This document shows, in pieces, positions 4,321 through 31,794 of a DNA stretch of 32,269 nucleotides; the first letter of the stretch is position 1, and each line of letters starts with the position of its first letter. Origin of the DNA: Bacteroidetes bacterium GWF2_33_38 (GTDB lineage: Bacteria > Bacteroidota > Bacteroidia > Bacteroidales > GWF2-33-38). The stretch covers positions 1 through 32,269 of the forward strand of contig MEOF01000014.1 in NCBI GenBank assembly GCA_001769505.1, in the 5' to 3' direction. A program made the position numbers and the translations under genes. Below the pieces are notes generated by a model that saw nothing but the letters and a program-made list of their open reading frames with translations, ran no database searches and was not told where the DNA came from.

Positions 4321-4322
4321 TT

Positions 4323-5249: not shown

Positions 5250-5261
5250 GGAAGTTGTAAA

Positions 5262-5292
5262 TAACGAGTAAAAAATTAAAAGTTACTCGTTA
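5262..5292. repeat. Intergenic hairpin TAACGAGTAA/TTACTCGTTA
   Basis: A perfect 10-bp inverted repeat (5262-5271 and 5283-5292, 11-nt AT-rich loop) lies 12 nt after the DUF4249 stop. No T-run follows on either strand, so it is a weak terminator candidate. It could instead protect the 3' end of the receptor/lipoprotein mRNA. The rest of 5293-5407 shows nothing recognisable. Confidence 0.55.
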
Positions 5293-5407
5293 CTAATGCG
5301 AATCAAGGATAGAAATGCAAATTTAAAACGAATGCAAACATTTGGCAATCAATAAAATAAGCGCACAAAACTTAACATATAGCCTAATATTCAGTACTTT
5401 ATGTGAA

Positions 5408-5438
5408 ATAAAAAAGCGAACAAAAAACTTTGTCCGCT
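5408..5438 (-). terminator. Rho-independent terminator of tRNA-His
   Basis: A 10-bp stem (5415-5424 with 5429-5438, one G-U pair, 4-nt loop) is followed on the minus strand by six T (5415 down to 5410). It begins 5 nt past the tRNA-His 3' end. Confidence 0.8.
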
Positions 5439-5442
5439 TTAG

Positions 5443-5517
5443 GGTGAATGATGGGATTCGAACCCACGACCTCCTGAACCACAATCAGGCGTTCTAACCG
5501 ACTGAACTACAATCACC
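5443..5517 (-). tRNA. tRNA-His (anticodon GUG)
   Basis: The minus strand forms a cloverleaf with anticodon arm CCTGA-TTGTGGT-TCAGG (anticodon GTG) and T arm GTGGG-TTCGAAT-CCCAT. The extra G at position -1 opposite C73, the identity element of tRNA-His, is present; counting it, the gene is 75 nt. The 3' CCA is not encoded. The acceptor stem GTGATTG/CATTCAC has a U-U mismatch at pair 5:68. A terminator (5408-5438) and a -7 box (5530-5537) make it a single-gene unit. Confidence 0.95.
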
Positions 5518-5529
5518 ATTTTAAGACTG

Positions 5530-5537
5530 CAAAGATA
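5530..5537 (-). promoter_or_regulatory. -7 box of the tRNA-His promoter
   Basis: On the minus strand TATCTTTG matches TAnnTTTG exactly and ends 12 nt before the tRNA 5' base. No TTG occurs at the normal 17-23 nt spacing, so the -33 part is unclear. Confidence 0.6.
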
Positions 5538-5635
5538 TAAAAAAAAATTATTGTTTTATAAAATCAATTGAAAAAATTTAAGACACAAATAATAATTAAA
5601 ATTAACTATTTTCGTTCAATATATTTATATTCATT

Positions 5636-13413: not shown

Positions 13414-15870
13414 ATGAATTATAGAGAAAGAAAAAAAGCCGTTGATTTATTGTTTTCAAATGTTTTAGATGAAAATTCTGATTTCATCTCCGTTGTATCT
13501 GACGAAAGCGACGAGGCAATCAATAAAACCGATATTCCCGAAATACTCCCCATATTACCCTTACGAAATACCGTATTGTTTCCAGGCGTGGTTTTACCAA
13601 TTACAGTTGGAAGAGATAAATCTTTGAAACTGATTCGAGATATTTATAAAAAGAATCGCTTGATAGGTACTGTGGCTCAAAAAGATGGACAAATTGAAGA
13701 CCCTGATTTTAAAGATATTTATGAAGTTGGAACTGTGGCAAGCATTATTAAAATTCTTGAAATGCCCGACGATACAACTTCCGTAATTATTCAAGGTCGT
13801 AAACGATTTAAAATTGATGAATTTCAATCAAATGACCCTTATTTTGTAGCCAAAATATCGCCATTAACAGATGAATCACCTCTCGATAACGATTCTGAAT
13901 ATCAAGCCTTGACAGGAGCTTTAAAAGATTTATCCTTAAAAATAATCAAGCTATCATCGAACATTGCTCCAGAAGCAAGTTTTGCAGTAAAAAATATCGA
14001 AAGCTCTACTTTTTTAATAAACTTTATTTCATCGAATAGCGAATTAAAAGTTGAAGAAAAGCAAGCCTTGTTAGAAAATAGTAATCTGAAAGAACGAGCT
14101 AAAAAACTAATGGAACATCTTACCAAAGAAGTTCAAATGCTCGAATTAAGAAATCAGATTCAACTAAAAGTTAAATCTGAACTTGATACACAACAACGCG
14201 AATACCTTCTTCATCAACAAATGAAAACCATTCAAGAAGAACTTGGAGGAAATCCCATTGACCGCGAAATTGATGAAATGCGAAAAAAAGGTAAAAAGAA
14301 AAAATGGAGCAAAAATATTGAACAAATATTTAAAAAAGAAGTAGATAAGCTTCAACGACTTAATCCTGCTGCAGGAGAATATTCAGTACAATTAAATTAT
14401 GTTCAAGCTTTATTAGATTTACCTTGGAACGAATATACGAAGGATAACCTCGAACTGCAACATGCCATTAAAGTTTTGGACGACGACCATTATGGACTTG
14501 AAAAAGTGAAAGAACGAATTTTAGAATATTTAGCAGTACTTAAGTTAAAAGGAGATTTAAAGTCGCCTATTCTATGTCTTTACGGACCTCCCGGTGTTGG
14601 AAAAACATCGTTAGGAAAATCAATTGCAAGAGCTCTAAATAGAAACTACATAAGAATGTCGTTAGGAGGACTTCACGATGAAGCTGAAATTAGAGGTCAT
14701 CGCAAAACATATATTGGAGCAATGCCCGGACGAATTATTCAAAATATTAAAAAAGCTAAATCGTCAAATCCTGTTTTTATTCTTGATGAAATCGACAAAG
14801 TAGGAAATGATTATAGAGGAGACCCATCAGCAGCATTATTGGAAGTACTCGATCCTGAGCAAAACAATGCTTTCTACGACAATTACCTCGAACTCGAATA
14901 CGATTTATCTAACGTAATGTTTATAGCTACAGCTAACGTAATTAGCAGCATAAATCCTGCTCTTCGCGACAGAATGGAAATGATAAACATTTCAGGATAT
15001 ATTGTTGAAGAAAAAATAGAAATAGCCAAAAAGCATTTAATTCCAAAACAACTCGAAGCACATGGAATTAGTCCTAAGCAAATAAAATTTTCAAAAGCTG
15101 TGATTGAATATATTGTTGAAAATCACAGTAAAGAATCAGGGGTACGCGAGCTCGACAAAAAAATTGCTAAAGTTGTACGTCGAGTAGCCAAAAAAATTGC
15201 TTTTGACGAAAAATATAATGTGAACATTACCCTTGAAGATGTAAAAGAATATCTTGGTTCAAACGAGTATAAAAAAGAAATTTATGCAGGAAACGAATTC
15301 GCAGGTGTGGTTACAGGTTTGGCATGGACTGCTCTCGGTGGCGAAATTTTGTACATCGAAACAAGTTTAAGCAAAGGAAAAGGAAATTTAACCTTAACTG
15401 GAAATTTAGGAGAAGTAATGAAAGAATCTGCAATTATTGCTCAAGAATATATAAAATCGCATTCCGATAAACTCGGTCTCGATTCTGATATTTTTGAAAA
15501 ATGGAATGTTCACGTTCATGTTCCCGAAGGAGCAATTCCCAAGGATGGTCCATCGGCTGGCATTACGATGGCAACATCTTTAGCATCTGCTTACACACAA
15601 CGTAAAGTAAAGAATGGTATTGCCATGACAGGAGAAATCACGTTGAGAGGAAAAGTTCTTCCAGTTGGTGGGATAAAAGAAAAAATTCTTGCAGCAAAAA
15701 GAGCTAACATAAAAGAAATAATTCTATCAATAGATAATAAAAAAGATATTGAAGAAATCAATGATTTGTATATTAAAGGATTAACTTTTCATTTTGTTGA
15801 AAACATTATCGATGTATTTAATATTGCATTGCTAAAACAAAAAGTTGAAAATCCACTGAAATTAAGTTAA
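13414..15870 (+). CDS. lon: ATP-dependent protease Lon
   Basis: This 818-residue cytoplasmic AAA+ serine protease degrades misfolded and regulatory proteins. Its N-terminal LON substrate-binding domain starts near residue 44 (LPILPLRNTVLFPGVVLPITV) and is followed by a helical region. The AAA module has Walker A GPPGVGKT at 391-398 and Walker B VFILDEIDKVG. The C-terminal protease domain has its catalytic dyad S714 (PKDGPSAG) and K757 (GGIKEKILAA), spaced 43 residues as in E. coli Lon. All key residues are intact and the length is normal for Bacteroidota Lon, which carries an N-terminal extension. A small unknown gene follows by 3 nt. No heat-shock-type operator was recognised in the 84-nt upstream gap. 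Confidence 0.97.
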   Translation: MNYRERKKAVDLLFSNVLDENSDFISVVSDESDEAINKTDIPEILPILPLRNTVLFPGVVLPITVGRDKSLKLIRDIYKKNRLIGTVAQKDGQIEDPDFKDIYEVGTVASIIKILEMPDDTTSVIIQGRKRFKIDEFQSNDPYFVAKISPLTDESPLDNDSEYQALTGALKDLSLKIIKLSSNIAPEASFAVKNIESSTFLINFISSNSELKVEEKQALLENSNLKERAKKLMEHLTKEVQMLELRNQIQLKVKSELDTQQREYLLHQQMKTIQEELGGNPIDREIDEMRKKGKKKKWSKNIEQIFKKEVDKLQRLNPAAGEYSVQLNYVQALLDLPWNEYTKDNLELQHAIKVLDDDHYGLEKVKERILEYLAVLKLKGDLKSPILCLYGPPGVGKTSLGKSIARALNRNYIRMSLGGLHDEAEIRGHRKTYIGAMPGRIIQNIKKAKSSNPVFILDEIDKVGNDYRGDPSAALLEVLDPEQNNAFYDNYLELEYDLSNVMFIATANVISSINPALRDRMEMINISGYIVEEKIEIAKKHLIPKQLEAHGISPKQIKFSKAVIEYIVENHSKESGVRELDKKIAKVVRRVAKKIAFDEKYNVNITLEDVKEYLGSNEYKKEIYAGNEFAGVVTGLAWTALGGEILYIETSLSKGKGNLTLTGNLGEVMKESAIIAQEYIKSHSDKLGLDSDIFEKWNVHVHVPEGAIPKDGPSAGITMATSLASAYTQRKVKNGIAMTGEITLRGKVLPVGGIKEKILAAKRANIKEIILSIDNKKDIEEINDLYIKGLTFHFVENIIDVFNIALLKQKVENPLKLS

Positions 15871-15873
15871 ATT

Positions 15874-16101
15874 ATGAATAAATACTCTGAAAAACTCGCT
15901 ATAAAAGTCGCAAAATTACTAGATATGAACCCTCCTGATTTAACAAATTTCGAGGTCGATATTATTGTAAAAGTTATTGATGAAGCTATGCATGAGCAGC
16001 GAATGGCAGACATTCGAGAAGTAAATAGCATCGAGCGAGACGAAAATGGAATGGTATATGCCGACCAAGTAATTGAAAAAATAAATGAAAACAAAATATA
16101 G
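15874..16101 (+). CDS. Small hypothetical protein downstream of lon
   Basis: This 75-residue acidic, probably all-helical soluble protein is not one I recognise. It has no signal peptide, membrane segment or Cys. The segments KYSEKLAIKVAKLLDMNPPDLTNFEVDIIVKVIDEAMHEQRM and NGMVYADQVIEKIN look like amphipathic helices. It begins 3 nt after the lon stop, so it is likely co-translated with Lon and could be a Lon-associated or stress-related small protein; that is inference from position only. The opposite strand has an ORF of similar length over the same bases, but its composition (Ser/Phe/Ile-rich) looks like a shadow. Confidence 0.65.
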   Translation: MNKYSEKLAIKVAKLLDMNPPDLTNFEVDIIVKVIDEAMHEQRMADIREVNSIERDENGMVYADQVIEKINENKI

Positions 16102-16282
16102 TGAATCATTTTGCAGTACTTATACCTTAAAATTTACATCTCGAAGACTGCCGTCACAAAAAGATAATTTCCTTTGTTTTAGGTCTTAATTCCCAAAAAA
16201 TTAAAACTAGAATTGCAGTTTAGGAAAATTCACGAATTATGATGGAATATCTTTTCTTAAAATGAAATAGTTACAGCTTTTT

Positions 16283-17431
16283 TTAATTGCTTGTAAGCAA
16301 TAATTTTTGAGAAGTAGATGCATTGTTCTGAATCAATTTTACGATGTACAACCCATTTTTAAGATTGGTATCTAATGTTACAAAATTTGCCCCTTTGATT
16401 GGTGAAATATATTCTGTAGAAACAATTTTCCCATTCATATCACTTACAATAATATTTAAATCGGTTAAACCTTCTGTTGATATTATCAGATTCAATTTTT
16501 CGACACTTGCATTAACTCCAATAAGTTTAAGCGACGAGTTTGATAATTTGCATAAAATACTGAGCATATCAAAATAAATATAGTTCCCATCTAAGTCGGT
16601 TTGTTTTATTCTATAGTATGTTGTTACTTCATTCGATTCTGAGTCGTTATAATAATACTCGTTAATATTGTTACTATTTATAGCACCGGCAATGGTTGAA
16701 ACAATTTTCCAGTTTATCAAATCGTTACTCTTTTCGATAGTAAAAAAATCGTTATCTGTTTCGGTAGCCGTTGACCATTCAATTAACGAGCCTGTTTTAG
16801 TACAAACAACTGTATAATCAATCAGTTTAACTGGTAATAAATTATCACATAAAATTTCTTTTGGTCCTATACCCTGCTCGTTTGAAAAGCCATAAGCCGT
16901 TCCCCAATTATTGTATTCTCCTGAAATATAAATTTTACCACAACCACCTATGTTTGAACCGTTTCCGTTATAATATTCTCCGCCAATATTTAGTGTTCCA
17001 TTTATCACAACTCCAGTTGTATTATTTTTGTTCTCGAAGTTGCTCAAAATATTTATGGTTACACTTTCGTCGATAATAATATCCGATGAGTTATTGAATG
17101 TAAGATTGTAGACTTGTAAGTTTCCATATACCTCGAGTGAACCTCCATTTTTAATTTCCAGACTTGATGTGTTCGATGTTAACGAGCCTATACTTGTAAC
17201 AATAAGCCTTCCAGTGGAGTGAATAACTATATCAACATCTAAATTTATATCGGTTTCGATGTAAATTATGTCAGATTGATTCGGAGTAAAATTTGTGGGC
17301 TTCCCCCCTGATGTAAGTGCCCATAATTGATTGGTTGACCAATTTCCATCTATAACTGAATAGTAAGTTGTCGAAAAAAGGTTAGAAGTGGTAAAAACTA
17401 CTATTATGCTGAGTATGATTATATGTTTCAT
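16283..17431 (-). CDS. T9SS-exported surface protein, function unknown
   Basis: This 382-residue secreted protein opens with a signal peptide (residues 1-20) and YYSVIDGNWSTNQLWALTSGGKPTNFTP. A parallel-beta-helix-like stretch follows (about 50-190; repeated short units such as GGSLEVYGNLQVYNLTFNN and NGTLNIGGEYYNGNG). Next comes a fibronectin-like module with the common Bacteroidota wording LIEWSTATETDNDFFTIEKSNDLINW and YYRIKQTDLDGNY, and a C-terminal type A sorting domain ending in NGLYIVKLIQNNASTSQKLLLTSN. The protein is thus probably exported by T9SS and surface-attached or released. It has no recognisable catalytic motif. The gene is monocistronic, with its own promoter at 17461-17491. 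Confidence 0.82.
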   Translation of the reverse strand: MKHIIILSIIVVFTTSNLFSTTYYSVIDGNWSTNQLWALTSGGKPTNFTPNQSDIIYIETDINLDVDIVIHSTGRLIVTSIGSLTSNTSSLEIKNGGSLEVYGNLQVYNLTFNNSSDIIIDESVTINILSNFENKNNTTGVVINGTLNIGGEYYNGNGSNIGGCGKIYISGEYNNWGTAYGFSNEQGIGPKEILCDNLLPVKLIDYTVVCTKTGSLIEWSTATETDNDFFTIEKSNDLINWKIVSTIAGAINSNNINEYYYNDSESNEVTTYYRIKQTDLDGNYIYFDMLSILCKLSNSSLKLIGVNASVEKLNLIISTEGLTDLNIIVSDMNGKIVSTEYISPIKGANFVTLDTNLKNGLYIVKLIQNNASTSQKLLLTSN

Positions 17432-17460
17432 AAATTATCTTTATTTAGATTAATTATAAA

Positions 17461-17491
17461 CAAAGATAATGTTTCAAAATGCCGAAGTCAA
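17461..17491 (-). promoter_or_regulatory. Promoter of the minus-strand T9SS protein gene
   Basis: On the minus strand TTG (17489-17491), a 20-nt spacer and TATCTTTG (17461-17468, exact TAnnTTTG) form a good Bacteroidota promoter whose -7 box ends 29 nt before the ATG at 17431. Confidence 0.7.
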
Positions 17492-17549
17492 GTTTTTTGA
17501 TGTTTTTATACCAATTCTATTTCCATATGACACATATGTAATTTTTTAG

Positions 17550-17569
17550 ATTCCCTTTTTCAAGGGAAT
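17550..17569. repeat. Palindrome ATTCCCTT/AAGGGAAT
   Basis: A perfect 8-bp inverted repeat with a 4-nt loop (TTTC) lies in the 304-bp gap 17432-17735 between two minus-strand genes. It is not followed by a clear T-run on the minus strand. Apart from this, the neighbouring palindrome and the promoter, the gap shows nothing recognisable. Confidence 0.6.
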
Positions 17570-17589
17570 GTACCTCAAGAAATTACTAC

Positions 17590-17609
17590 ATACCCGCAAA
17601 AGCGGGTAT
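17590..17609. repeat. Palindrome ATACCCGC/GCGGGTAT, copy 1
   Basis: A perfect 8-bp GC-rich stem with an AAAA loop. The same stem with a different loop recurs at 23143-23163, so it is probably a dispersed palindromic repeat rather than a gene-specific terminator. It lies 127 nt beyond the stop of the minus-strand MFS gene. Confidence 0.65.
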
Positions 17610-17735
17610 CTTATTTTTAAATTGTGTCGGTTACATTGAATCGTAATTGGTATTATTTAAAAAAATTGGTGGCTTAAGGCTTAATCAAATCATGGGTTAA
17701 GATTTTTATGAAGGAACACACTGCATAATTAAAAT

Positions 17736-18947
17736 CTACTTCAATCTCGAAATAGATTTTCGCGAAAACAAAAAGCTCAGCACAATTAGAATAGTTCCCA
17801 ACATAAATGGTGCACCAGGAAAATAAATTATATCGTTTTCTTTTGAAAAAAACGAAAACAAATTAGTCATTAGCAAAGGTCCAATGATTGAAGTTAAACT
17901 GATTAAACTAGTGATTGCTCCTTGCAATTCACCTTGTTCGTTGCTTGGAATTTCATTTGAAATAACTCCTTGCATCGCAGGTCCTGCAATTCCGCCCAAA
18001 CAATACGGAATCAAAAATGCAAACATCATCCAGCCTTCGGTTGCAAAAGCAAAAAGTGTCATTCCAATACCCCAAAATGCCATTCCAAAAAAAATTGATT
18101 TTTTAACTCCAAGCCTCGGTATTGTATATCGAATTAAAACTCCCTGAACAATTGCAACTAGTAACCCAACCAATCCTAACGAATAGCCAACCATTGTTTC
18201 GTTCCAATTGAATTTAAACATGGTGTAAAATGTCCAATTCGATTGAATAGCATGACCTGCAATATGTAGCATAAAAATTGCCAAAATTATTCCCGATACC
18301 ACCGGATATTTTCGCAAGTGAAATAATGAGCCTATCGGGTTTGCTCGCTTCCAAACAAAGGCTCTTCGATTTTCGGTAGGTAGTGATTCGGGCAATACAA
18401 AATAGCCATACAAAACATTTAGAAAAGCTAATCCAGCAGCAACAAAAAACGGTACGCTTACTCCCCATTTACTAAGCACACCGCCCATAACTGGACCAAT
18501 TATAAATCCTAATCCAAATGCAGAGCCGATTAATCCAAAATTTTGAGCTTTTTTATGAGGTTCGCTCACATCGGCAATATATGCAGTAGCCGTTGTAACA
18601 CTAGCACCGCAAACTCCAGCAAAAATTCGTGCAATAAACAACCAAAATATCGATGGAGCAAAAGCATGAATCAAATAATTAATTCCTAAACCAAACAATG
18701 ATAAAAGCAATACCGGACGTCGCCCAACTTTGTCGCTCAGACTACCCAACACTGGAGCAAAAATAAATTGCATAATAGCGTAGGAAAACATTAGCCAGCC
18801 GCCATATTTTGCTGCCTCAGCAATACCTGTATTTGTTAATTTTTCGATTAAAGAAGGAATAACCGGAATAATAATACCAACGCCAATAACATCAATCAGC
18901 ACGGTAACAAAAATAAAACCCAATCGGGCGTTGAATCGATTATTCAT
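17736..18947 (-). CDS. MFS transporter, TetA-like (DHA1) group
   Basis: This 403-residue inner-membrane protein has 12 predicted helices. The TM2-3 loop GSLSDKVGRRPVLLLS is the MFS signature GxLaDrxGrrxxl, and LIDVIGVGIIIPVIPSLIEKL at the N-terminus with AGVCGASVTTATAYIADVSEPHKKAQNFGLIGSAFGLGFIIGPVMGG (antiporter motif region) places it near the TetA/Bcr proton-antiport drug exporters. It would use proton entry to expel small molecules. Tetracycline resistance cannot be claimed, because many chromosomal Bacteroidota homologues have unknown substrates. It is transcribed away from the M3 peptidase gene; the starts are 94 nt apart. No TetR-type repressor is adjacent. Confidence 0.88.
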   Translation of the reverse strand: MNNRFNARLGFIFVTVLIDVIGVGIIIPVIPSLIEKLTNTGIAEAAKYGGWLMFSYAIMQFIFAPVLGSLSDKVGRRPVLLLSLFGLGINYLIHAFAPSIFWLFIARIFAGVCGASVTTATAYIADVSEPHKKAQNFGLIGSAFGLGFIIGPVMGGVLSKWGVSVPFFVAAGLAFLNVLYGYFVLPESLPTENRRAFVWKRANPIGSLFHLRKYPVVSGIILAIFMLHIAGHAIQSNWTFYTMFKFNWNETMVGYSLGLVGLLVAIVQGVLIRYTIPRLGVKKSIFFGMAFWGIGMTLFAFATEGWMMFAFLIPYCLGGIAGPAMQGVISNEIPSNEQGELQGAITSLISLTSIIGPLLMTNLFSFFSKENDIIYFPGAPFMLGTILIVLSFLFSRKSISRLK

Positions 18948-23371: not shown

Positions 23372-24403
23372 ATGATTTTTAGATTACAAAAAATAAATAA
23401 TTGGAAAATTGGTATTGTTTTTTCAGTTCTGTTATCAGCATTTAATTTACTAAACAACAGCCAATATTACTCTGAAACAAATCTTTTAAGTATTCTGCTT
23501 AGTTGGACTGCAACGTTCATTTTTCTTATCGCAAGTTGGTATATTATTTCTTTTCTGTTTGCTTTTTTTGAAAAATCGAATAAAAAAATTAGTAACCTGA
23601 ATAAGATTCTGATTTTAATCGTTTTTACCAGCATACTATTGGGTTTATTCTATATTATTGGTATTTATATAAGAAGTGAACTCAACATCATGGCTACCCG
23701 TAAAGAGAATGTGAGTTTTTTTATTGTTTTAAGAGGAGTTGTTAGTATTTTCTTTATTTGCATCTTTCAATATGCCCTTAACACTAATAAAAAGGCACAG
23801 GAAGCACTTTTACAGAATCAGAAACTCAAAACAGAAAATATTTTGGCTCAGTTTGAGATATTACGACAACAGGTAAATCCTCATTTTTTATTTAATTCTT
23901 TGTCTACTTTGCGGTCAATGATTCGGTCTAGTAATAAGAACTCTGAAATATTCGTCATCAAACTTTCTGAGATTTATCGCCAGTTATTATTAAAACGGGA
24001 AAAAGAAGTTGTTTCTTTAAAAGAAGAGCTTGACTTTATAAACGATTATATGTTTATGCTATTAGAAAGGTACGATACAATGCTTACTTTAAATATTGAT
24101 ATCCCCGGGCACTTACTGAAACTGAAAATACCTACATTCAGTTTGCAACTGCTTTTGGAAAATTGCATTAAACACAATGTTATTTCACAAGATAGACCTC
24201 TGAAAATAAAAATATTTTTCACAAATCCTGAAAGCCTTATTATTGAGAATAATTTTCAGCCAAAATTAACTCAAAGTGAAAAATCAGGTTTCGGATTACA
24301 AAATCTGGAGCAAAGATACAGTCTATTAGGTGAACCGGACGGAATTCATGTTTTTTCAGATGAATCGGTATTCAGAGTTAAAATTAAAATGCTCAATGTT
24401 TAA
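23372..24403 (+). CDS. LytS-type sensor histidine kinase
   Basis: This 343-residue inner-membrane kinase has four hydrophobic helices (about residues 12-30, 38-66, 73-97 and 110-130). A coiled region (ALNTNKKAQEALLQNQKLKTENILAQFEILRQQ) links to the His_kinase domain of the LytS/YehU class. The phospho-acceptor is H171 in QVNPHFLFNSLSTL, and the ATPase domain has an N-box LLLENCIKHNV and a G-rich motif GFGLQNLEQRYSLLG. It lacks a large sensory domain, so the membrane helices probably sense the signal or a partner. The response-regulator gene starts 3 nt after its stop, so the two form a two-component pair. The signal is unknown; control of the adjacent efflux genes is the natural inference. 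Confidence 0.93.
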   Translation: MIFRLQKINNWKIGIVFSVLLSAFNLLNNSQYYSETNLLSILLSWTATFIFLIASWYIISFLFAFFEKSNKKISNLNKILILIVFTSILLGLFYIIGIYIRSELNIMATRKENVSFFIVLRGVVSIFFICIFQYALNTNKKAQEALLQNQKLKTENILAQFEILRQQVNPHFLFNSLSTLRSMIRSSNKNSEIFVIKLSEIYRQLLLKREKEVVSLKEELDFINDYMFMLLERYDTMLTLNIDIPGHLLKLKIPTFSLQLLLENCIKHNVISQDRPLKIKIFFTNPESLIIENNFQPKLTQSEKSGFGLQNLEQRYSLLGEPDGIHVFSDESVFRVKIKMLNV

Positions 24404-24406
24404 AAA

Positions 24407-25174
24407 ATGATGAAAATATTAATCATAGAGGATGAACCCAAAACAGCTGATGTTTTAAAAGATATTATCTTACAGGTCCAACCCAAAACCGAAATTATAT
24501 CAATTATTGACAGTATTCAAAAATCAGTTGAGTTCTTATCAGTTATAAGTAATTCTCCTGATTTAATTTTTATGGATATCCAATTGGCTGATGGCCTTAG
24601 TTTTGAAATCTTTTCGAGAGTCAAAGTTAAATGCCCTGTTATTTTTTGCACTGCTTACGACCAATATGCCTTGCAAGCCTTTAAAACGAATGGTATTGAA
24701 TATATCCTTAAACCAATTAAAGAAGACGATGTTAAAGGGGCATTTGTGAAATTTGAAAACTTAAAACTGTCCATCAAACCGGAATCAGAAATACTGGATG
24801 TACTTAGAAATGTATTAAGTAATAAGAAAGACTTTAAAACAACTATTCTGGTTCGTCACAAAGAAAGTTATATACCTATTGTAATTTCAAGCATAGCACT
24901 TTTTTATTTAGATACTGAAATTGTTTATGCCTATACTTTCAATAATCAGAAATATGCGGTCTTTAAATCCATTAATGACATTGAAAATGATATTGACCCT
25001 TCTTTATTTTATAGAATAAATCGACAAATGTTAATAAACCGGACTTCCATTACAGAAATTCAGCCCTACTTCAATCGAAAGGTCATTATAAAAACCCATC
25101 TAAAAATAAATGAACAACTTATAGTTAGTCGCTTAAAAGTAACCGATTTCATGAATTGGATGGAAAAACCCTAA
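24407..25174 (+). CDS. LytTR-family response regulator
   Basis: This 255-residue cytoplasmic transcription factor has a receiver domain (1-120; acidic pocket EDE near residues 8-10, phosphorylated D57 in FMDIQLADG, conserved T/S and K in FCTAYDQYA and EYILKPIKEDD). A C-terminal LytTR DNA-binding domain follows (about 150-253; FKTTILVRHKESYIPIVISSIALFYLDTEIVYAYT and FYRINRQMLINRTSITEIQPYFNRKVIIKT). Phosphorylation by the upstream kinase should activate binding to direct repeats spaced about two helical turns; such a pair lies 4 nt beyond its stop at 25178-25210, ahead of the DUF2147-efflux genes. ATG 24407 is followed at once by a second ATG (24410); either could be the start. Confidence 0.95.
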   Translation: MMKILIIEDEPKTADVLKDIILQVQPKTEIISIIDSIQKSVEFLSVISNSPDLIFMDIQLADGLSFEIFSRVKVKCPVIFCTAYDQYALQAFKTNGIEYILKPIKEDDVKGAFVKFENLKLSIKPESEILDVLRNVLSNKKDFKTTILVRHKESYIPIVISSIALFYLDTEIVYAYTFNNQKYAVFKSINDIENDIDPSLFYRINRQMLINRTSITEIQPYFNRKVIIKTHLKINEQLIVSRLKVTDFMNWMEKP

Positions 25175-25177
25175 TCC

Positions 25178-25210
25178 TGTTCAATTCACATTTCTATTTG
25201 TTCAACTCAC
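25178..25210 (+). promoter_or_regulatory. Candidate LytTR operator (21-bp spaced direct repeats)
   Basis: TGTTCAATTCAC (25178-25189) and TGTTCAACTCAC (25199-25210) differ at one base and are 21 bp apart start to start, two turns of DNA, the known geometry of LytTR-domain sites. A weaker third copy (8 of 12) is at 25231-25242, 32 bp further. The repeats lie 35 bp upstream of the candidate -7 box of the efflux operon and directly after the LytTR gene. The binding role is inference. Confidence 0.55.
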
Positions 25211-25244
25211 TAACATTTTCATTTTTACCCATTTAAACTCGCTT

Positions 25245-25252
25245 CATCTTTG
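25245..25252 (+). promoter_or_regulatory. Candidate -7 box of the DUF2147-efflux operon
   Basis: CATCTTTG matches TAnnTTTG at 7 of 8 positions and ends 27 nt before ATG 25280. There is no TTG at the expected -33 distance, which would fit an activator-dependent promoter. Confidence 0.4.
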
Positions 25253-25279
25253 TGCCATAAATTTTAAAGCACAAAGAGT

Positions 25280-25702
25280 ATGAAGCGATATTTTTTTCTA
25301 ATGCTGGTTGTTTTGGTAAGCACAGCAATCAAGGCACAAACCCCGTCCGATAAAATAGTTGGGGTTTGGTTAAATGAGGATAAAACAACCAAGATTGAAA
25401 TTTTCAAAACGGGGAATACCTATTCTGGAAAAATTGTATGGTTAGCACAACCAGACGATGCTAATGGTAAACCACGTCTTGATAAAAATAATCCTGACCC
25501 AGATAAAAGAAATCAAAAAATCCTTGGTTTAACCATTATTTCAGAACTAAAGTATTCCAACAATAAATGGTCGGGAGGCATCTTTTATGGGCCGAAACGA
25601 GGACAATATGCAAACTGTTCCATTAACCTGAAATCAGGTCAACTTCTTATAACAGTATCAAAGGGCATCCTGTCGGAAACTAAAATATGGACAAAATCAT
25701 GA
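25280..25702 (+). CDS. DUF2147 secreted protein
   Basis: This 140-residue protein has a signal peptide (1-19, ending IKAQ) and a single beta-rich DUF2147 domain: IVGVWLNEDKTTKIEIFKTGNTYSGKIVWL, the PDPDKRNQKILGLTIISELKY loop and WSGGIFYGPKRGQYANCSI. Relatives are periplasmic or surface proteins of unknown biochemical role with a lipocalin/calycin-like look. It is the first gene after the LytTR operator, and its stop overlaps the TolC start (ATGA), so it belongs to the efflux operon. A role in envelope homeostasis or as a chaperone for the export machinery is inference. The single Cys in the mature chain offers no evident disulfide partner. Confidence 0.85.
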   Translation: MKRYFFLMLVVLVSTAIKAQTPSDKIVGVWLNEDKTTKIEIFKTGNTYSGKIVWLAQPDDANGKPRLDKNNPDPDKRNQKILGLTIISELKYSNNKWSGGIFYGPKRGQYANCSINLKSGQLLITVSKGILSETKIWTKS

Positions 25703-27006
25703 AAATAAAAGTAACAATCCTTGCATTTCTGATGATGCCGGTTATTCTACAGGCACAGCACGTTTTCAATTCATTAAATGATGTCTGGGAATATTCATTG
25801 TCAAATAATCCGGAAAATAATATTTACCGGTTGAAGATTGAACAGGCAGGTCAGGATAAAAAAACTGCCAACAGCTATTTGTACCCTAAGGTCGGGGCTG
25901 CTTTTTCGGGACAAAAAAACATCGAAATTCCTGAGACTCCTGTACCTGGTGAACTAATGGGAAAACCCGGAGAAACAGTCTATATGAAGTTTGGACAGAA
26001 TTATAGTTACAACAGCGGAATATCAGTTAGTAAAACAATACTTGATTGGCAGTCGATGGTTCAGGCAAAAATTGCTAAACTGAATGTTTCACTTAATCAA
26101 GCACAGAAAGACTACTTTGAGCAAACTTTAAAAGAACAGGTTGCACAGGTTTATTATGCTGCTATAACAGCAAACAAAGCAGTCGAGATTAGTAATAAGG
26201 ACTTAGAAATAGCTGATTCTTTATTCCTAATCGCACAAGGCCGTTTTGAACAGGGCTTAATTGACGGTTTAGTGTTTAACCAGGCTATAATTAATAAAAA
26301 CAATGTTATCAGAAACCTTGAACAAAACAAATTCTATCAAAGCCAATGGATGTATAACCTGAAATTGTTGCTGGGATTTGCAGCTACCGATTCATTAATC
26401 CTGACGGAGGATATAATAATCAATCGAATTAACGACCAATTTGATTACGGCCAGGTTTCAAACGAAAAATATACGAGGATTTATAACTTACAATCCGATA
26501 TTTCCGGGATTGAAACAAAAAGAGCTTTGGCAAGATTCGCCCCCAAAATGGAAGTTAACTATTATTTGGGCTCCTTTCAATATCAAAGTGATTTCACATT
26601 TTCTCTTAAGTCCGCCGATTGGAAACCAAGCAGTTATCTGGGCATCTCCGTTTCGGTGCCTCTTTTTACCGGGTTCGCAAATAAATCACAATACAGCTCT
26701 GCAAAAATTTCAAGAACAATAACGCAAATGAAATCTCAGGACGAAACCCGTAAATCAGCTATAAACGACAGCATCCTGTTAGCTAATTACTTTTCGTCAG
26801 TAAAACTTATTGAAATAACTTCTGAAACATATAAAGTTTCAGGGAATAACGTTGAGCTTGCATCTCAAAAATACGGACAGGGTTTAATAAGCCTTGATGA
26901 ATACCTGAAGGTATTCGACGATTACCTGGCGGTAGAAAACCAATATTTCAATTCGCTATCGGATTATTTAATAAACAAAGCAACAATAGAAGCACGAAAA
27001 AATTAA
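25699..27006 (+). CDS. TolC-family outer-membrane efflux protein
   Basis: This 435-residue protein starts with a signal peptide (MKIKVTILAFLMMPVILQAQ) and has the duplicated alpha-helical OEP repeat pattern: long helices such as IEQAGQDKKTANSYLYPKVGAAFSG, DYFEQTLKEQVAQVYYAAITANKAVEISNKDLEIADSLFLIAQGRFEQGLID and, in the second half, ASQKYGQGLISLDEYLKVFDDYLAVENQYFNSLSDYL. It would form the trimeric channel for substrates delivered by the adaptor and ABC transporter encoded next. An upstream in-frame ATG (25687) overlaps DUF2147 by 16 nt; ATG 25699 gives an ATGA stop-start overlap and a proper signal peptide, so it is chosen. The adaptor gene follows after 5 nt. Confidence 0.92.
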   Translation: MKIKVTILAFLMMPVILQAQHVFNSLNDVWEYSLSNNPENNIYRLKIEQAGQDKKTANSYLYPKVGAAFSGQKNIEIPETPVPGELMGKPGETVYMKFGQNYSYNSGISVSKTILDWQSMVQAKIAKLNVSLNQAQKDYFEQTLKEQVAQVYYAAITANKAVEISNKDLEIADSLFLIAQGRFEQGLIDGLVFNQAIINKNNVIRNLEQNKFYQSQWMYNLKLLLGFAATDSLILTEDIIINRINDQFDYGQVSNEKYTRIYNLQSDISGIETKRALARFAPKMEVNYYLGSFQYQSDFTFSLKSADWKPSSYLGISVSVPLFTGFANKSQYSSAKISRTITQMKSQDETRKSAINDSILLANYFSSVKLIEITSETYKVSGNNVELASQKYGQGLISLDEYLKVFDDYLAVENQYFNSLSDYLINKATIEARKN

Positions 27007-27011
27007 TAATT

Positions 27012-28100
27012 ATGAAAAAGAAACTTATCCAGTATTGTTTAATTGGAGTTACCCTCTTAACTGGTTGCAACCGCCCGGAAAAAATTCAGCCACAACGCAA
27101 AGACATTGTTGATGCTGTATTTGCAAGTGGAAGTATTATTACCGACGACCAATATTCGGTAACATCGCAGTCGGAAGGGTATCTTATAAATTTCTTAGTA
27201 AACGAAGGAGATACGGTAAATAAAGACCAGGCACTTTTCCATATTTACGACGATGCCCAAAAGGTGCAGCTCGAAAGTGCGACTGCCAACTATCAAAATG
27301 CGTTGGATAATGTTGGTTCAAACTCAGCCATATTACAACAGTTATATGCTCAACGTAACCAGTTAAAAAACAAACTTGTCAATGATTCATTAAACTTTAT
27401 CAGGTATAGTAACCTAGTTAAATCAAGTGCAGTCTCAAAATCCGATTACGATAAGTCTAAACTTGCATTTGATAATTCCAGACACGAATTACTGGCGATG
27501 GACAACCTTATCCGGGATACAAAGAAAAATCTTGAGTTGGAGCTGATAAAATCAAAGGCGAATCTTGTTTCGCAACAAAGTTCAAGCTCATATTATACAT
27601 TAAACAGCAAAAAAAACGGTGTAATATTACAAATATTCAAAACCAATGGTGAACTGGTAAAAAGGGGCGAGACTTTAGCCGAAATTGGTTCAGGCGATTT
27701 TATCATTAAATTGTTTATATCCGAAGATGATATTAATAGAATCTATACCGGTCAGGAAGTCTATGTTGAACTGAATACCGAAAAGAACAAAGGTTATAAA
27801 GCTACAATCTCAAAAATATACCCATCCTTCGATTCAAAAGAACAGTCATTTATTGCAGAAGCAAGGTTTGTTGAGCCTGTTACCAATTTGAAATCAGGAA
27901 CACAGCTTCAAGCAAATATTGTAATCCGGCAAAAAGAACGAGCATTGGTTATTCCTACAAATTATCTTCTCTCGCACGATAATGTAATCATCAATAATAA
28001 AAAAGAGAAAGTAAAAGTTCAGGTTGGAATAAGAACTACTGAGTGGGCTGAAATTATAAGCGGTTTGAATGAGACCACAACAATAGTACGTCCGAATTAA
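27012..28100 (+). CDS. HlyD/MacA-type membrane-fusion lipoprotein
   Basis: This 362-residue periplasmic adaptor has a lipobox LTGC with Cys at residue 19, so it is probably lipid-anchored. A lipoyl-like domain half (GYLINFLVNEGDTVNKDQALFHIYDD, about 50-80) is followed by a coiled-coil hairpin (about 85-185; LESATANYQNALDNVGSNSAILQQLYAQRNQLKNKL ... SRHELLAMDNLIRDTKKNLELELIKSKAN), the second lipoyl half (KKNGVILQIFKTNGELVKRGETLAEIG) and beta-barrel and membrane-proximal parts (about 225-360). It joins the ABC transporter to TolC. The C-terminus ends early (GLNETTTIVRPN), somewhat shorter than MacA; this may be normal for the group. The permease gene starts 11 nt downstream. Confidence 0.92.
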   Translation: MKKKLIQYCLIGVTLLTGCNRPEKIQPQRKDIVDAVFASGSIITDDQYSVTSQSEGYLINFLVNEGDTVNKDQALFHIYDDAQKVQLESATANYQNALDNVGSNSAILQQLYAQRNQLKNKLVNDSLNFIRYSNLVKSSAVSKSDYDKSKLAFDNSRHELLAMDNLIRDTKKNLELELIKSKANLVSQQSSSSYYTLNSKKNGVILQIFKTNGELVKRGETLAEIGSGDFIIKLFISEDDINRIYTGQEVYVELNTEKNKGYKATISKIYPSFDSKEQSFIAEARFVEPVTNLKSGTQLQANIVIRQKERALVIPTNYLLSHDNVIINNKKEKVKVQVGIRTTEWAEIISGLNETTTIVRPN

Positions 28101-28111
28101 AATTTGATTGT

Positions 28112-29359
28112 ATGAAAAAATCAGTTAATAATCAGATAGCCGGGGTTCATTTAACCTCAAGAATCGGACAAACTATTGTTGCCATTTTGGGAGTAACATT
28201 TGGCGTTTCCATGTACATCTTCATGAACAGCTTCATGAATGGAGTTAATAATGCGCAGGATGATATGGCCTTTAGCTCAATGTCCCATATACGCATTTAC
28301 AATGAGAATAATGAACAATCTTATAATCCAGTAGAAAGTTTTTTTAAATCACCTCAAACAATCTTTAATATAAGAAGCCATAAGATAATGCAATATACCG
28401 ATGGCATAAAAAATACGTCTGAAATTATCTCTTTCCTTGAAAATCAACAAGAAATAACAGGTATTGCATGTCAACTGAATTTTAATGTTTTTTTTCGAAG
28501 TGGTTCAAAAAAAATAAACGGGCTAATCTCAGGTGTTGAAGTAGCCAACGAGGACAAACTTTTTGATAATTCGAGTAAAGTTATATCAGGTAAATGGTCT
28601 GATTTAAGCTACCAAAAATCAGGGATTATACTTGGGACGAACCTAGCCGAAGACTTAGGAGTTAAAGTCAACGATAATATCAATATCCTGACCTCCGATG
28701 GAATTTCCAAAAACTTTATAGTAGTTGGGATTATTGAGACATCGGTAAAACAGGTAGATAAAACGAAAGCATGGCTTAATATTTCATCTGCTAGGCAATT
28801 GCTAAGCAAAAATCGGGATTACGCAAGCGATATTCTGATAAATATTAAAGAAAAAGATAATACGGAAGCCTTCTTAAAAAAAATCGAACCTGTTATACCT
28901 TACCAAATCGAAAGTTGGCAGGTGGCCAATCAACAATTGGTAGCGATGACACAAATCCGTAATATCCTGGCCATTGCCGTTTCACTTACTATTCTTTTTG
29001 TTGCTGGTTTTGGAATTTATAACATCATGACTATGACTATTAATGAAAAAATAAAGGAAATAGCCATTCTTAAAGCAATGGGATTTTCAGGGCACGATAT
29101 AACTGTAATTTTTCTATCTCAAGCCGCAATAATTGGATTTATTGGAAGTGTTGTTGGTGTTATTTTAGGATATAGCATATCAACTCTTGTTAACAAGGTT
29201 CCTTTTGAAATTGCCGGTTTATCAACCTTGCCAATTTTCTATCGGTATCAGGATTTCCTTTTGGCAATTGCATTTGGCATTACAACTACATTAATAGCAG
29301 GCTTTTTGCCTGCGAAAAAAGCTTCAAAAATTGACCCGGTAATTATTATTCGAGGATAA
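28112..29359 (+). CDS. ABC transporter permease, FtsX/MacB-type
   Basis: This 415-residue inner-membrane protein has one N-terminal helix (IGQTIVAILGVTFGVSMYIFMNSFMNGV, about 19-46), a large periplasmic MacB_PCD-like domain (about 50-285) and three C-terminal helices forming the FtsX core (AVSLTILFVAGFGIYNIMTMTIN, IIGFIGSVVGVILGYSIS and FLLAIAFGITTTLIAGFLPAKKASKIDP). The EKIKEIAILKAMGFSGHDI segment between the helices is the coupling region contacting the ATPase. This is the mechanotransmission type (MacB, LolC/E), in which the ATPase is here a separate gene 1 nt downstream. With a TolC and adaptor alongside, it probably drives export from the periplasm, not lipoprotein release. A single permease suggests a homodimer. 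Substrate unknown. Confidence 0.9.
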   Translation: MKKSVNNQIAGVHLTSRIGQTIVAILGVTFGVSMYIFMNSFMNGVNNAQDDMAFSSMSHIRIYNENNEQSYNPVESFFKSPQTIFNIRSHKIMQYTDGIKNTSEIISFLENQQEITGIACQLNFNVFFRSGSKKINGLISGVEVANEDKLFDNSSKVISGKWSDLSYQKSGIILGTNLAEDLGVKVNDNINILTSDGISKNFIVVGIIETSVKQVDKTKAWLNISSARQLLSKNRDYASDILINIKEKDNTEAFLKKIEPVIPYQIESWQVANQQLVAMTQIRNILAIAVSLTILFVAGFGIYNIMTMTINEKIKEIAILKAMGFSGHDITVIFLSQAAIIGFIGSVVGVILGYSISTLVNKVPFEIAGLSTLPIFYRYQDFLLAIAFGITTTLIAGFLPAKKASKIDPVIIIRG

Positions 29360-29360
29360 C

Positions 29361-30038
29361 ATGGAAAATATATCATTAAAAGTAAGGAACGTCATCAAGT
29401 ATTTTTATGACCCCGACACCTTTCAGGTCTTAAAAGGAGTTTCTTTCGACGTTAAAAAGGGAGAGTTTCTTTCAATCATCGGAAAATCAGGCTCGGGAAA
29501 ATCCACCTTGTTATATGTGCTGTCGTCTATGGATACCGATTACGAGGGTTCATTGGAAATTAACGGCGATTTGCTAACTGGTAAAACCCAAAACCAATTG
29601 GCAGTTTTCCGCAACGAACATATCGGATTTGTATTTCAGTTCCACTACTTGCTTCCGGAGTTCACATCCCTGCAAAACGTGATGTTACCAGCTTTAAAAC
29701 TTGGTAAATATTCCCCTCAGGAAGTTGAGCATAAAGCCTATGAAAGTTTACGATTGCTGGATTTGGAAGACCAGGCTATGAAAAAAGCAAATAAACTATC
29801 GGGAGGCCAGCAACAGAGAGTGGCAATTGCAAGAGCCCTAATTAACAACCCTTCAGTAATTATGGGTGATGAGCCTACAGGCAATCTTGATTCAAAGAAC
29901 GCAAGGGCAGTTCAGGATATCTTTAAAGACTTGGCGAAATCCTACGGACAAACAATAATTTGTGTTACCCACGACAACGACTTTGCCAGGAACACCGACA
30001 GAATAATCGAAATGCAAGATGGACTGATTGTAAGTTAA
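29361..30038 (+). CDS. ABC transporter ATP-binding protein, LolD/MacB-type
   Basis: This 225-residue cytoplasmic ATPase has Walker [10 protein letters not shown] (41-49), a Q-loop in [27 protein letters not shown] signature [15 protein letters not shown], Walker [14 protein letters not shown] and a switch-region CVTHDNDFA. These are the hallmarks of the LolD/MacB/FtsE subfamily (note the [16 protein letters not shown] wording). It powers the permease encoded 1 nt upstream. Its stop TAA shares an A with an ATG (30038) that could start the next gene, indicating tight coupling. All catalytic motifs are intact. Confidence 0.96.
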
Positions 30039-30085
30039 TGTACAATTATAAAAACCAAAATATACTTGACAATAATATATATTTT

Positions 30086-30838
30086 ATGAGAAATTGTTTC
30101 CTTTCACTTTTGACCGCATTTTTATTTGTAATCAATTCCACTCTATCAGCTCAGGAAAGGCATTATAAAACCCAGGCTGAATTAGAAATGGAGAAGTTTG
30201 AGAAATTAAAAACTCTCCGACATAGTTTCGCAATAAGTTTACATTACGGGCATTTTGAAATGTTACCGTTTGCTAAAGCCAGTGGTAATACAACCAATAT
30301 TGATATTAGTGATTACCACAATATGTTTAACATCGGGGCGGAATACTATCCTTACGAAAAAATAGCTGCCCTGCTTTCAGTTGGATTAATTATTATTCCC
30401 CAGGTACAGACCATTGATAGCATAACCTTTGAACCCGGTTCAGGTTTAGGGGGTATCAAGGTAAATGGCAGCGGTAAAGGGGGAGCAATCTTGCCAATGA
30501 CTTTCGGGGTTAAAAAGACTTTTCTGGATGGTCTAGCCCGCCCGTATGTATCGTTTTCGTCAGGCTTTTCATTTATTAAGATTGGGACAGGAACAGGTAC
30601 TGGAAGTATAAATGGAATTGAGAAGAATGTAGATTATCAATCACAACTTACATTTTGCTATCAGTTGGGTACTGGCATTCAACTTAGAGCAGGTAAGGTT
30701 GTGAGGTTTGATTTTGGTGTAAATTATAATGGAAGTCCAAAGTTTCCATCTTCTATTGGTGGGATTGATTCTTATCAGGGTTTGTATGTTTTTGGAGGAA
30801 TGAATTTTATATTAAATCCCAACAAGGTAAGCAAATGA
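30086..30838 (+). CDS. Outer-membrane beta-barrel-like protein, unassigned
   Basis: This 250-residue protein has a signal peptide (MRNCFLSLLTAFLFVINSTLSAQ), a short charged helix (KTQAELEMEKFEKLKTLRH) and then alternating beta-strand segments (FAISLHYGHFEM, YYPYEKIAALLSVGLIIIP, GGAILPMTFGVKKTF, RPYVSFSSGFSFI, VRFDFGVNYNG, GLYVFGGMNFIL) that read like an 8-10-strand outer-membrane barrel. I do not recognise a specific family. ATG 30038, overlapping the ATPase stop, would add 16 residues before the signal peptide; ATG 30086 gives a cleaner export signal and is chosen. The following gene overlaps its stop by 4 nt (ATGA). Its position in the efflux operon suggests an accessory role in export; this is inference. 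Confidence 0.7.
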   Translation: MRNCFLSLLTAFLFVINSTLSAQERHYKTQAELEMEKFEKLKTLRHSFAISLHYGHFEMLPFAKASGNTTNIDISDYHNMFNIGAEYYPYEKIAALLSVGLIIIPQVQTIDSITFEPGSGLGGIKVNGSGKGGAILPMTFGVKKTFLDGLARPYVSFSSGFSFIKIGTGTGTGSINGIEKNVDYQSQLTFCYQLGTGIQLRAGKVVRFDFGVNYNGSPKFPSSIGGIDSYQGLYVFGGMNFILNPNKVSK

Positions 30839-31794
30839 GCATCTATTATAAAAGAAGGATATTGTTCTTTATTTTATACATTATTTTGCTGCAATTACCT
30901 GTCATGACATATAGCCAACCGGGCTCTCCTCTTTCATTGTCATTGAATTATATTCCTGCAAAAAATGAAAGCACACCTTTTTTCTTAAACTTTAATTTGT
31001 CAATAAACTTTCCGGCTTATAAGGATTCCTTAATCACCGGGCTAATTGGAACTAATTTCAAATATTATCGGTTCAACTTTCAAAACGATTCACTGGATAT
31101 TCACAACCTATATTCGTGGTCGGTTCCTATTACATTCTTATATAAAACATCCGAAATCAGATACTTTGCCATGATGTTTGAACCTTCGCTAAGTTCAGAT
31201 TTTAAGGATATAAGCTCTTCAGACCTTAGGTATAATCTTGCCATGTTTTATGTAAAGAAAAAAGATTTAAACTCATCGTTTGGAATCGGTATTGCCATTT
31301 CGAAAAGATTTTCCGGATTTCAAATAGCCCCCTTTTATTTAATTAATATGCGGTTTCGAAATAAATGGATTCTTTCGGGAAACATTCCATTCAAATCAAA
31401 ATTAGCGTACGAAATTAACGGTAAAAAAAAAGTGGGAATCAGTTTCGGTGCGAATAGTAACTCATTTCGCCTTTCTGAGAAAGATAACAACAATTACATG
31501 GATTATCAGGCAATCGAAGTTTCTTTATTCTATCACCAGCCTGTTTTAAAACACTTCAAGTGGAATATTAACTTTGGAATGCAATCAACACAAACAGAAG
31601 TCTATAGTAAAAATCAGACTTTTCCCTTAAGTTTATTTCTTATATCTAGGAAAAAATCAGGGAATTCGCTAGAGTCATTTAAAAACAAGGGAATGTTGCT
31701 ATTTCAAGTTAATTTTTCATATGCGCCTTTCGAGAAGTATTCATCATTAAAATTTTCAAAAATTAATAAAAAAAAGATACATTGCAGATATTAG
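30835..31794 (+). CDS. Putative outer-membrane protein, last gene of the export operon
   Basis: This 319-residue protein starts MSIYYKRRILFFILYIILLQLPVMTYSQ, a signal peptide of about 28 residues. Many short beta-strand-like segments follow (FFLNFNLSINFP, FKYYRFNFQNDSLDIHNLYSWSVPITFLYKTSEI, RYFAMMFEPSLSSDF, NKWILSGNIPFKSKLAYEING, IEVSLFYHQPVLKHFKWNINFGMQ) and a final aromatic-containing strand (LLFQVNFSYAPFEKYSSLKF) before a basic tail. This composition suggests an outer-membrane barrel; it resembles the broad group of Bacteroidota DUF6268-like proteins, but I cannot confirm that. It overlaps the preceding barrel gene by ATGA, so the two are translated together. No function is known, and no terminator is obvious immediately after the stop. 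Confidence 0.65.
   Translation: MSIYYKRRILFFILYIILLQLPVMTYSQPGSPLSLSLNYIPAKNESTPFFLNFNLSINFPAYKDSLITGLIGTNFKYYRFNFQNDSLDIHNLYSWSVPITFLYKTSEIRYFAMMFEPSLSSDFKDISSSDLRYNLAMFYVKKKDLNSSFGIGIAISKRFSGFQIAPFYLINMRFRNKWILSGNIPFKSKLAYEINGKKKVGISFGANSNSFRLSEKDNNNYMDYQAIEVSLFYHQPVLKHFKWNINFGMQSTQTEVYSKNQTFPLSLFLISRKKSGNSLESFKNKGMLLFQVNFSYAPFEKYSSLKFSKINKKKIHCRY

Follow-up and report, generated by a model that had tools for sequence, protein, structure and literature searches.

A conserved Bacteroidota gene module with a predicted LytTR-type operator, a DUF2147 protein and a putative TolC-linked Lol/MacB-like ABC exporter

The window, the 32,269-nt stretch of contig MEOF01000014.1 from Bacteroidetes bacterium GWF2_33_38 (assembly GCA_001769505.1) that was analyzed here, carries nine co-directional open reading frames (ORFs) on the plus strand at 23372-31794, encoding a LytS-type histidine kinase, a LytTR regulator, a secreted DUF2147 protein, the parts of a tripartite ATP-binding cassette (ABC) exporter and two putative beta-barrel proteins (Table 1). 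Judged from sequence, the locus represents a real conserved module in which a tripartite ABC exporter is accompanied by its own two-component regulator and by DUF2147. A preliminary description had placed nine genes of these families at these positions and had noted their tight spacing from DUF2147 through the ATPase, and the reading frames, the Pfam scan and the gene distances agree with it. The kinase and regulator genes are 3 nt apart and the regulator and DUF2147 genes 105 nt apart; DUF2147 and TolC are joined by an ATGA overlap, provided that TolC starts at 25699, followed by gaps of 5, 11, and 1 nt between TolC, the adaptor, the permease and the ATPase. Barrel 1 follows after 47 nt and shares an ATGA overlap with barrel 2. 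Motif searches recovered the Walker A, signature and Walker B motifs of the ATPase, the kinase H-box and N-box, the receiver Asp motif, and the adaptor lipobox. With PF06580, the receiver and LytTR domains and the conserved His and Asp regions, LytS/LytTR qualifies as a two-component system.

Table 1. Genes and predicted regulatory elements of the module, in window coordinates
Feature	Position	Strand	Evidence
LytS-type histidine kinase	23372..24403	+	PF06580 His_kinase 2.3e-19; H/N boxes
LytTR response regulator	24407..25174	+	Response_reg 5.6e-12, LytTR 1.2e-15
LytTR-type operator (predicted)	25179-25208	+	direct repeat GTTCAATTC-N12-GTTCAACTC, period 21 bp
Bacteroidota -7 promoter element (predicted)	25245..25252	+	CATCTTTG; consensus TANNTTTG
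DUF2147, secreted	25280..25702	+	Pfam 1e-23; distant HP1028 relative
TolC-family outer membrane channel (OEP)	25699..27006	+	Pfam 2.2e-41
HlyD/RND-type periplasmic adaptor, lipoprotein (LTGC)	27012..28100	+	HlyD_3 4.8e-17; TIGR01730 118.9 bits, above cut-off
Lol/MacB-type permease	28112..29359	+	FtsX PF02687 1.6e-22, MacB_PCD PF12704 5.5e-16
Separate LolD-like ATPase	29361..30038	+	ABC_tran 7e-33
Barrel 1, secreted	30086..30838	+	homologue-based model; no Pfam match above cut-off
Barrel 2, DUF6268	30835..31794	+	PF19783 2.7e-14

The intergenic region 25175-25279 contains the direct repeat GTTCAATTC-N12-GTTCAACTC, located 71 bp ahead of DUF2147. LytTR sites consist of two repeats of 9 to 11 nt with spacers of 11 to 13 nt (PMC4847170; published papers are cited here and below from excerpts of their text), and the window repeat agrees with this rule in repeat length, spacer and target promoter. 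The sites of YpdB-type LytTR regulators are likewise direct repeats of about 9 to 10 nt with an 11- to 13-nt spacer (PMC4847170), but their half-site is GGCATTTCAT where the window has GTTCAATTC, and the window promoter element is of the Bacteroidota type. From the position of the -7 element, in the numbering that puts the G of the consensus TANNTTTG at -5 (PMC6847099), a transcript start is predicted near 25257, and the operator would therefore lie at about -78 to -48, which we infer to be a usual position for an activator. The predicted operator-promoter layout is directly visible in the intergenic region, and LytTR would bind at the repeat and activate the promoter. Scans of the window for sigma-70 promoters and terminators gave no more matches than in shuffled sequences.

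In the whole genome of the organism (3.93 Mb, 70 contigs, 99% complete), the pattern GTTCARYTC-N12-GTTCARYTC matched exactly at the window site alone. The sole match with one mismatch falls inside a long ORF, which we take to encode a restriction-enzyme subunit. At up to three mismatches there were 80 matches versus 48 for the reversed control, and only the exact match was therefore used within this genome. Ahead of LytS in the window, no operator was found at up to three mismatches. Because the operator precedes DUF2147 and none precedes LytS, the earlier proposal that the module is self-regulated is not supported in the window. At another locus (L009) a site with three mismatches lies ahead of LytS, where no -7 element follows at the usual spacing, and in several other genomes a downstream LytS/LytTR pair could be cotranscribed with the exporter.

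Relatives of the system were collected by the permease alone, which gave 32 loci (best-segment identity 49 to 92%) from organisms recorded as Bacteroidota or as unclassified bacteria. Except at contig ends and for occasional insertions, these loci keep the order DUF2147-TolC-HlyD-permease-ATPase, and its recurrence indicates that the arrangement is more than chance. DUF2147 was present in 30 of the 32 loci, the other two (L014 and L023) being cut by contig ends, and LytTR in 31, with L014 again cut. The position of LytS/LytTR varied: many relatives share the window's upstream placement of the pair, which in, e.g., L027-L032 and L034 lies downstream of the exporter and in the Muricauda/Flagellimonas loci on the opposite strand. 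The neighborhood comparison proposed in the preliminary description thus shows co-occurrence of the five core genes and LytS/LytTR, and the two barrel genes in some loci only. The view of one system more elaborate than a plain MacAB-TolC operon is borne out by the recurrence of the core set with LytS/LytTR across Bacteroidota.

Of 395 Bacteroidota genomes sampled evenly, 45, the window's own included, had a member of the wider permease family (profile A1, E <= 1e-90). Besides the window's own, 48 permease hits were examined (L153 is cut by a contig end) and split by score into L109-L111 (589 to 676), which all carry DUF2147, TolC and LytTR, and the other 45 (344 to 437), hereafter the sister loci (L112-L156, an HlyD-permease-ATPase family). 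Counted with hidden Markov models (HMMs) built from core loci, which could miss divergent TolC or LytTR, the sister loci had DUF2147 in 2, TolC in 10 and LytTR in 6 cases, TolC and/or LytTR in 12 and neither in 33; the barrel 1 family and DUF6268 were found in none of the 45. The core loci, defined by a permease score above 500 plus the frame-split L024, numbered 35; DUF2147 exceeded the score limit in 33, TolC in 34 and LytTR in 33, and the gaps correspond to contig cuts. All core permeases formed one clade with support of 1.0 (FastTree; 34 leaves including the window) in a tree that omits L016 and L024, whose permeases are cut or frame-split, and L112, L120, L156 and L123 branched next to it. 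The core type occurred in 4 of the 395 sampled genomes, with the window counted. The gene set and its conservation within a single permease clade are, as far as sequence comparison goes, well established.

When a cross-locus pattern with 20 defined positions was searched at up to three mismatches, at least one operator was detected in 25 of the 35 core loci versus none of the 45 sister loci; its reversed form gave 0/80. In 22 whole genomes with core loci, the matches with zero or one mismatch were the locus sites by sequence, plus one more in genome G077. The TT[TC]G of the -7 element followed the repeat by 39 nt in 27 and by 38 nt in 2 of 32 sites, a set that includes L029:6071 with four mismatches to the pattern; after dereplication, the element stood at the usual distance in 15 of 18 sites. 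In a further genome (G399), short tandem arrays of half-site-like sequence with a 21-bp period were observed on two contigs, at C9:64925-64997 and C56:82448-82499.

The window LytTR falls in an operator-bearing subclade (support 0.944; all supports are from FastTree), in which 23 of 24 regulators have the operator at their own locus, the other, L110, showing only matches with four mismatches. Among the listed LytTRs outside this subclade the operator was found for 0/11, with L023, whose upstream region is off the contig, included in this number. The tree omits LytTRs shorter than 200 residues (L019, L032 and others), of which L019 and L032 do have the operator, and the LytTRs of L113, L115 and L130 and the paralogues are in the tree and outside this 24/11 tally. 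The Dyadobacter permeases of L033 and L039 group with the operator-positive L030 (0.99), whereas their LytTRs group with those of Muricauda (0.852), and both of these LytTR sets lack the motif. The predicted operator thus follows the LytTR tree, even where that tree conflicts with the permease tree. These tree counts are not independent of ancestry, and the binomial and Fisher values disregard it. Three loci carry another LytS/LytTR pair, paralogous to the first, beside or inside the system: L009, at 14715-18117, and L016 and L024, at about 2629-5840. In them it comes with a recurring lipoprotein-like protein (c9) and a further protein (c17).

The permease gave its best NCBIfam match with lolCE TIGR02212 (178.3 bits; curated cut-off 362), in an alignment that covers it from residue 82 onward only, and the ATPase with LolD TIGR02211 (248.2 bits; cut-off 308), whereas the MacB model NF007826 scored 51 bits for the permease and 191 bits for the ATPase, with a cut-off of 966 set for the fused protein. 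Of five other permeases of the same genome that were compared, two matched lolCE best (239.6 and 169.7 bits) and three MacB, all below cut-off. Against solved structures, the window permease scored highest with LolF (82.8 bits), followed by LolE (61.2) and MacB (57.9). The permease and ATPase therefore appear closer in sequence to LolCE/LolF and LolD than to MacB; the domains named in the preliminary description (FtsX/MacB permease and LolD/MacB ATPase) are confirmed, and MacB as the nearest kin is not.

As in MacAB-TolC, an FtsX/MacB_PCD permease, an HlyD-type adaptor and TolC lie in a single operon, but MacB fuses ATPase and permease, which are separate genes here, and DUF2147, DUF6268, and the LytS/LytTR pair with its operator are added. 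LolCDE or LolF-LolD lipoprotein release provides the closest sequence kin of the permease and ATPase, but the window proteins remain below the curated cut-offs and their genes are tied to an adaptor and TolC. Being unfused and nearer to Lol, the system is not MacAB-TolC, and being below the Lol cut-offs and combined with TolC and an adaptor, it is not LolCDE; it would work as a mixture of both. The closest published architecture found is Aat of E. coli (AatPABCD), a composite of Lol-like and type I secretion/MacA-TolC-like parts with a Lol-like permease and ATPase, an adaptor and a TolC-like channel, which exports a glycine-acylated protein (PMC7943197); the window system differs by its LytTR operator and DUF2147. 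By analogy with Aat, which itself combines LolCDE-like with MacAB-TolC-like parts (PMC7943197), the LolCE/LolD-like pair might extract an acylated protein or a lipid and pass it through the adaptor and TolC to the cell surface, an explanation that fits the kinship of the permease and ATPase, the adjacent adaptor and TolC genes, and the lipocalin-like partner. Neither an AatD/Lnt-like acyltransferase nor a constant small secreted protein was recognised among the recurrent neighbors, where clusters c13, c14 and c18-c22 have no identity; this, together with the match of the lolCE model to only part of the permease, makes Aat-like surface export unlikely in our judgment. Helicobacter HP1486-HP1489 were considered as a counterpart and set aside, their permeases being given as members of the ABC-2 family (PMC9570263).

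The window DUF2147 scored 84.5 bits with PF09917 (gathering cut-off 27). A profile of 18 DUF2147 members (A2) matched HP1028 (PDB 4inn) of a different organism, Helicobacter pylori, with E=1e-7 over 107 positions. HP1028 is given as a lipocalin (PMC9570263), and 4inn, with bound hexaoxaicosane-diol, is among the structural matches of a calycin (PMC7521688). These likenesses suggest that DUF2147 may be a lipocalin-like periplasmic carrier. In the sampled Bacteroidota the family was found in 103/395 genomes with 145 genes. The family at large does occur apart from the transporter, which the preliminary description had named as a result that would speak against its view; inside the core clade it does not. 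Of the 45 sister loci, 43 are without it. It could also be argued that the neighborhood is that of an ordinary exporter, with DUF2147 and the barrels as unrelated envelope genes sharing the operon by chance, as only 6 of the 145 DUF2147 genes are near the permease family and the barrels occur in part of the loci; given DUF2147 in 33 of 35 core loci, with contig cuts in the other two, and an operator preceding it in most of them, we regard a chance association as very improbable. At L034:4565-6497, DUF2147 is present twice, with about 1.5 kb between the copies, a 256-codon ORF in that space and an identical operator ahead of each.

The idea that the two barrels are fixed accessories is weakened, since the barrel 1 family was found in 11 and DUF6268 in 16 of the 32 permease-found loci. 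Both had been described as unassigned; barrel 2 now belongs to DUF6268 (PF19783, 53.3 bits; gathering cut-off 22.8) and no other DUF6268 gene turned up in the genome at E <= 0.001; barrel 1 stays without a Pfam family, its match to PagL being nonsignificant (0.055). By sequence comparison with solved structures, barrel 1 reached E values of 0.11 or worse, and barrel 2 had no match. The structure prediction that had been suggested could be made for barrel 2 itself and, for barrel 1, through the longer homologue from L013, which is 22% identical to the window protein in the alignment. The barrel 2 prediction had a predicted local distance difference test (pLDDT) of 81 and modest Foldseek TM-scores to known barrels, of up to 0.43 over the query; in VIA-align, the nearest among the families listed were OmpG (Z 15.9, root mean square deviation 3.5, 201 aligned), CymA (15.6) and TodX/FadL (13.8 and 13.6), and barrel 2 is accordingly modelled as an OmpG/CymA-like barrel. 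The C-terminal half of the L013 model was a barrel of about eight strands, resembling, again among the families listed, OprF (Z 19.5), OmpA (18.5), OmpW (17.8) and PagL (17.7). Its N-terminal domain is of low confidence in the model and is absent from the window barrel 1, and the low confidence is the reason that no enzyme role is claimed. A shared barrel fold does not show function.

Further gene families, named from one or a few members each, recurred beside the 32 permease-found loci: DUF6515 in 8, TonB receptors in 6, and DUF4249 in 4. At L013:12430-15667, an operator with three mismatches, followed at the usual spacing by a -7 element, precedes a TonB receptor/DUF4249 pair, and a like operator with a -7 element lies at a contig end at L014:4942; export and uptake may be under one switch in these two cases. 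In L029 an operator and -7 element also stand ahead of a unit of two ORFs, the first of 178 residues and the next belonging to the barrel 1 family, and in L034 they stand ahead of the second DUF2147 copy. In genome G077, on a contig apart from the exporter (L187:8918-11367), two operator copies, each with its -7 element in the usual place, precede genes for an alpha/beta-hydrolase that is secreted and lipoprotein-like and for a 214-residue protein that has no Pfam match. A PagL-family lipid A deacylase gene (6e-11) was located between TolC and HlyD at L015:3813-4541. Extra sites in L188, L189 and L190 were dropped as weak or lacking a convincing gene context. Elsewhere in the window, tRNA-Lys (292-365) and tRNA-His (5442-5516) genes were observed, both on the minus strand.

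With confidence somewhat better than even, we interpret the system as a LytTR-activated, TolC-linked Lol/MacB-like exporter of an amphiphile, with DUF2147 as a lipocalin-like carrier. LytS would sense an inducer within the inner membrane or close to it, and phosphorylated LytTR would bind the 21-bp-period repeat and activate the promoter with the -7 element. The transcript would yield the DUF2147 carrier, TolC, the lipoprotein adaptor, the LolCE/LolF-like permease and the LolD-like ATPase, and the two downstream barrels would probably be made by read-through. The permease and ATPase would form a MacB-like pump for an amphiphilic small molecule or a lipid. This cargo would be picked up either from DUF2147 or in the outer leaflet of the inner membrane and would leave the cell through the adaptor and TolC; the barrels may modify outer-membrane permeability. 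Both the direction of transport and the amphiphilic nature of the substrate are what we infer from these parts. In favor of this interpretation, copies of the switch in other genomes precede the alpha/beta-hydrolase and the TonB receptor with DUF4249, and the operon of L015 includes PagL. The earlier suggestion of an envelope-stress molecule or peptide did not hold for the peptide, for which no evidence as cargo was found; the circumstantial signs favor an amphiphile.

Several observations weigh against the amphiphile exporter. The kinship between the window DUF2147 and HP1028 is no more than distant, and of the 145 sampled DUF2147 genes 139 lie away from the exporter family, with 6 within 10 kb (49 permease hits). 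Ten of the 35 core loci have no operator at up to three mismatches (L020-L023, L025, L026, L033, L036, L039 and L110, with L023 counted as operator-less and its upstream region off the contig), and the -7 element is not at the usual distance in 3 of 32 sites (L009:4158, L027:6025 and L111:6340). The 47-bp gap ahead of barrel 1 could fit a separate transcript, and the suggestion of an amphiphile draws on fold analogies and accessory genes of other genomes.

The same components may be read as inducible antimicrobial or multidrug efflux of the MacAB-TolC kind, in which the permease may help LytS to sense the drug. In BceAB-BceS modules, the permease aids the kinase in drug sensing. The tripartite anatomy would suit a drug pump, as would a dedicated kinase with three hydrophobic segments (36-68, 72-102, and 112-137) and no large periplasmic domain by simple hydropathy, and a two-component pair that changes place yet is kept. 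In Flavobacterium johnsoniae coevolved with the antibiotic producer Burkholderia thailandensis, mutations hit either a LytTR regulator or a histidine kinase whose locus number comes next (FJOH_RS09515/RS09520) in 5/5 lines, a LytTR contribution left unexplained by the authors (PMC10197871); that pair is not known to be the one described here. The constant DUF2147 and the accessory receptor, barrel and hydrolase genes are in our judgment unusual for a drug pump, and the permease is closer to LolCE than to MacB, so that drug efflux appears rather unlikely.

For the preferred amphiphile exporter, a bolder form can be sketched, to which we give limited credence. DUF2147 would take the place of LolA beside the LolCE/LolF-like permease, and the lipid or amphiphile would leave via the adaptor and TolC for the cell surface or the exterior. 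A LytTR switch dedicated to this pathway would control it and, in some species, would extend to receptors for uptake, to barrels and to enzymes that cleave lipids or esters.

No account of the gene set or the operator was found in the open-licence literature, as judged mostly by titles and the beginnings of abstracts, and a module of the Lol/MacB tripartite kind with a putative LytTR-type operator would thus be what is new here. To our knowledge, the transfer of lipids and lipoproteins to the Bacteroidota surface is poorly understood, and a Lol-like pump that appears coupled to TolC and to have a lipocalin-like protein as partner therefore deserves testing. Generic annotations become one testable system with a precise candidate operator, a predicted transcript start and a reporter-ready promoter for an inducer search. 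DUF2147, a gene family without an assigned function so far, gains a proposed role, and the operator provides a rule for locating further regulon members in other genomes.

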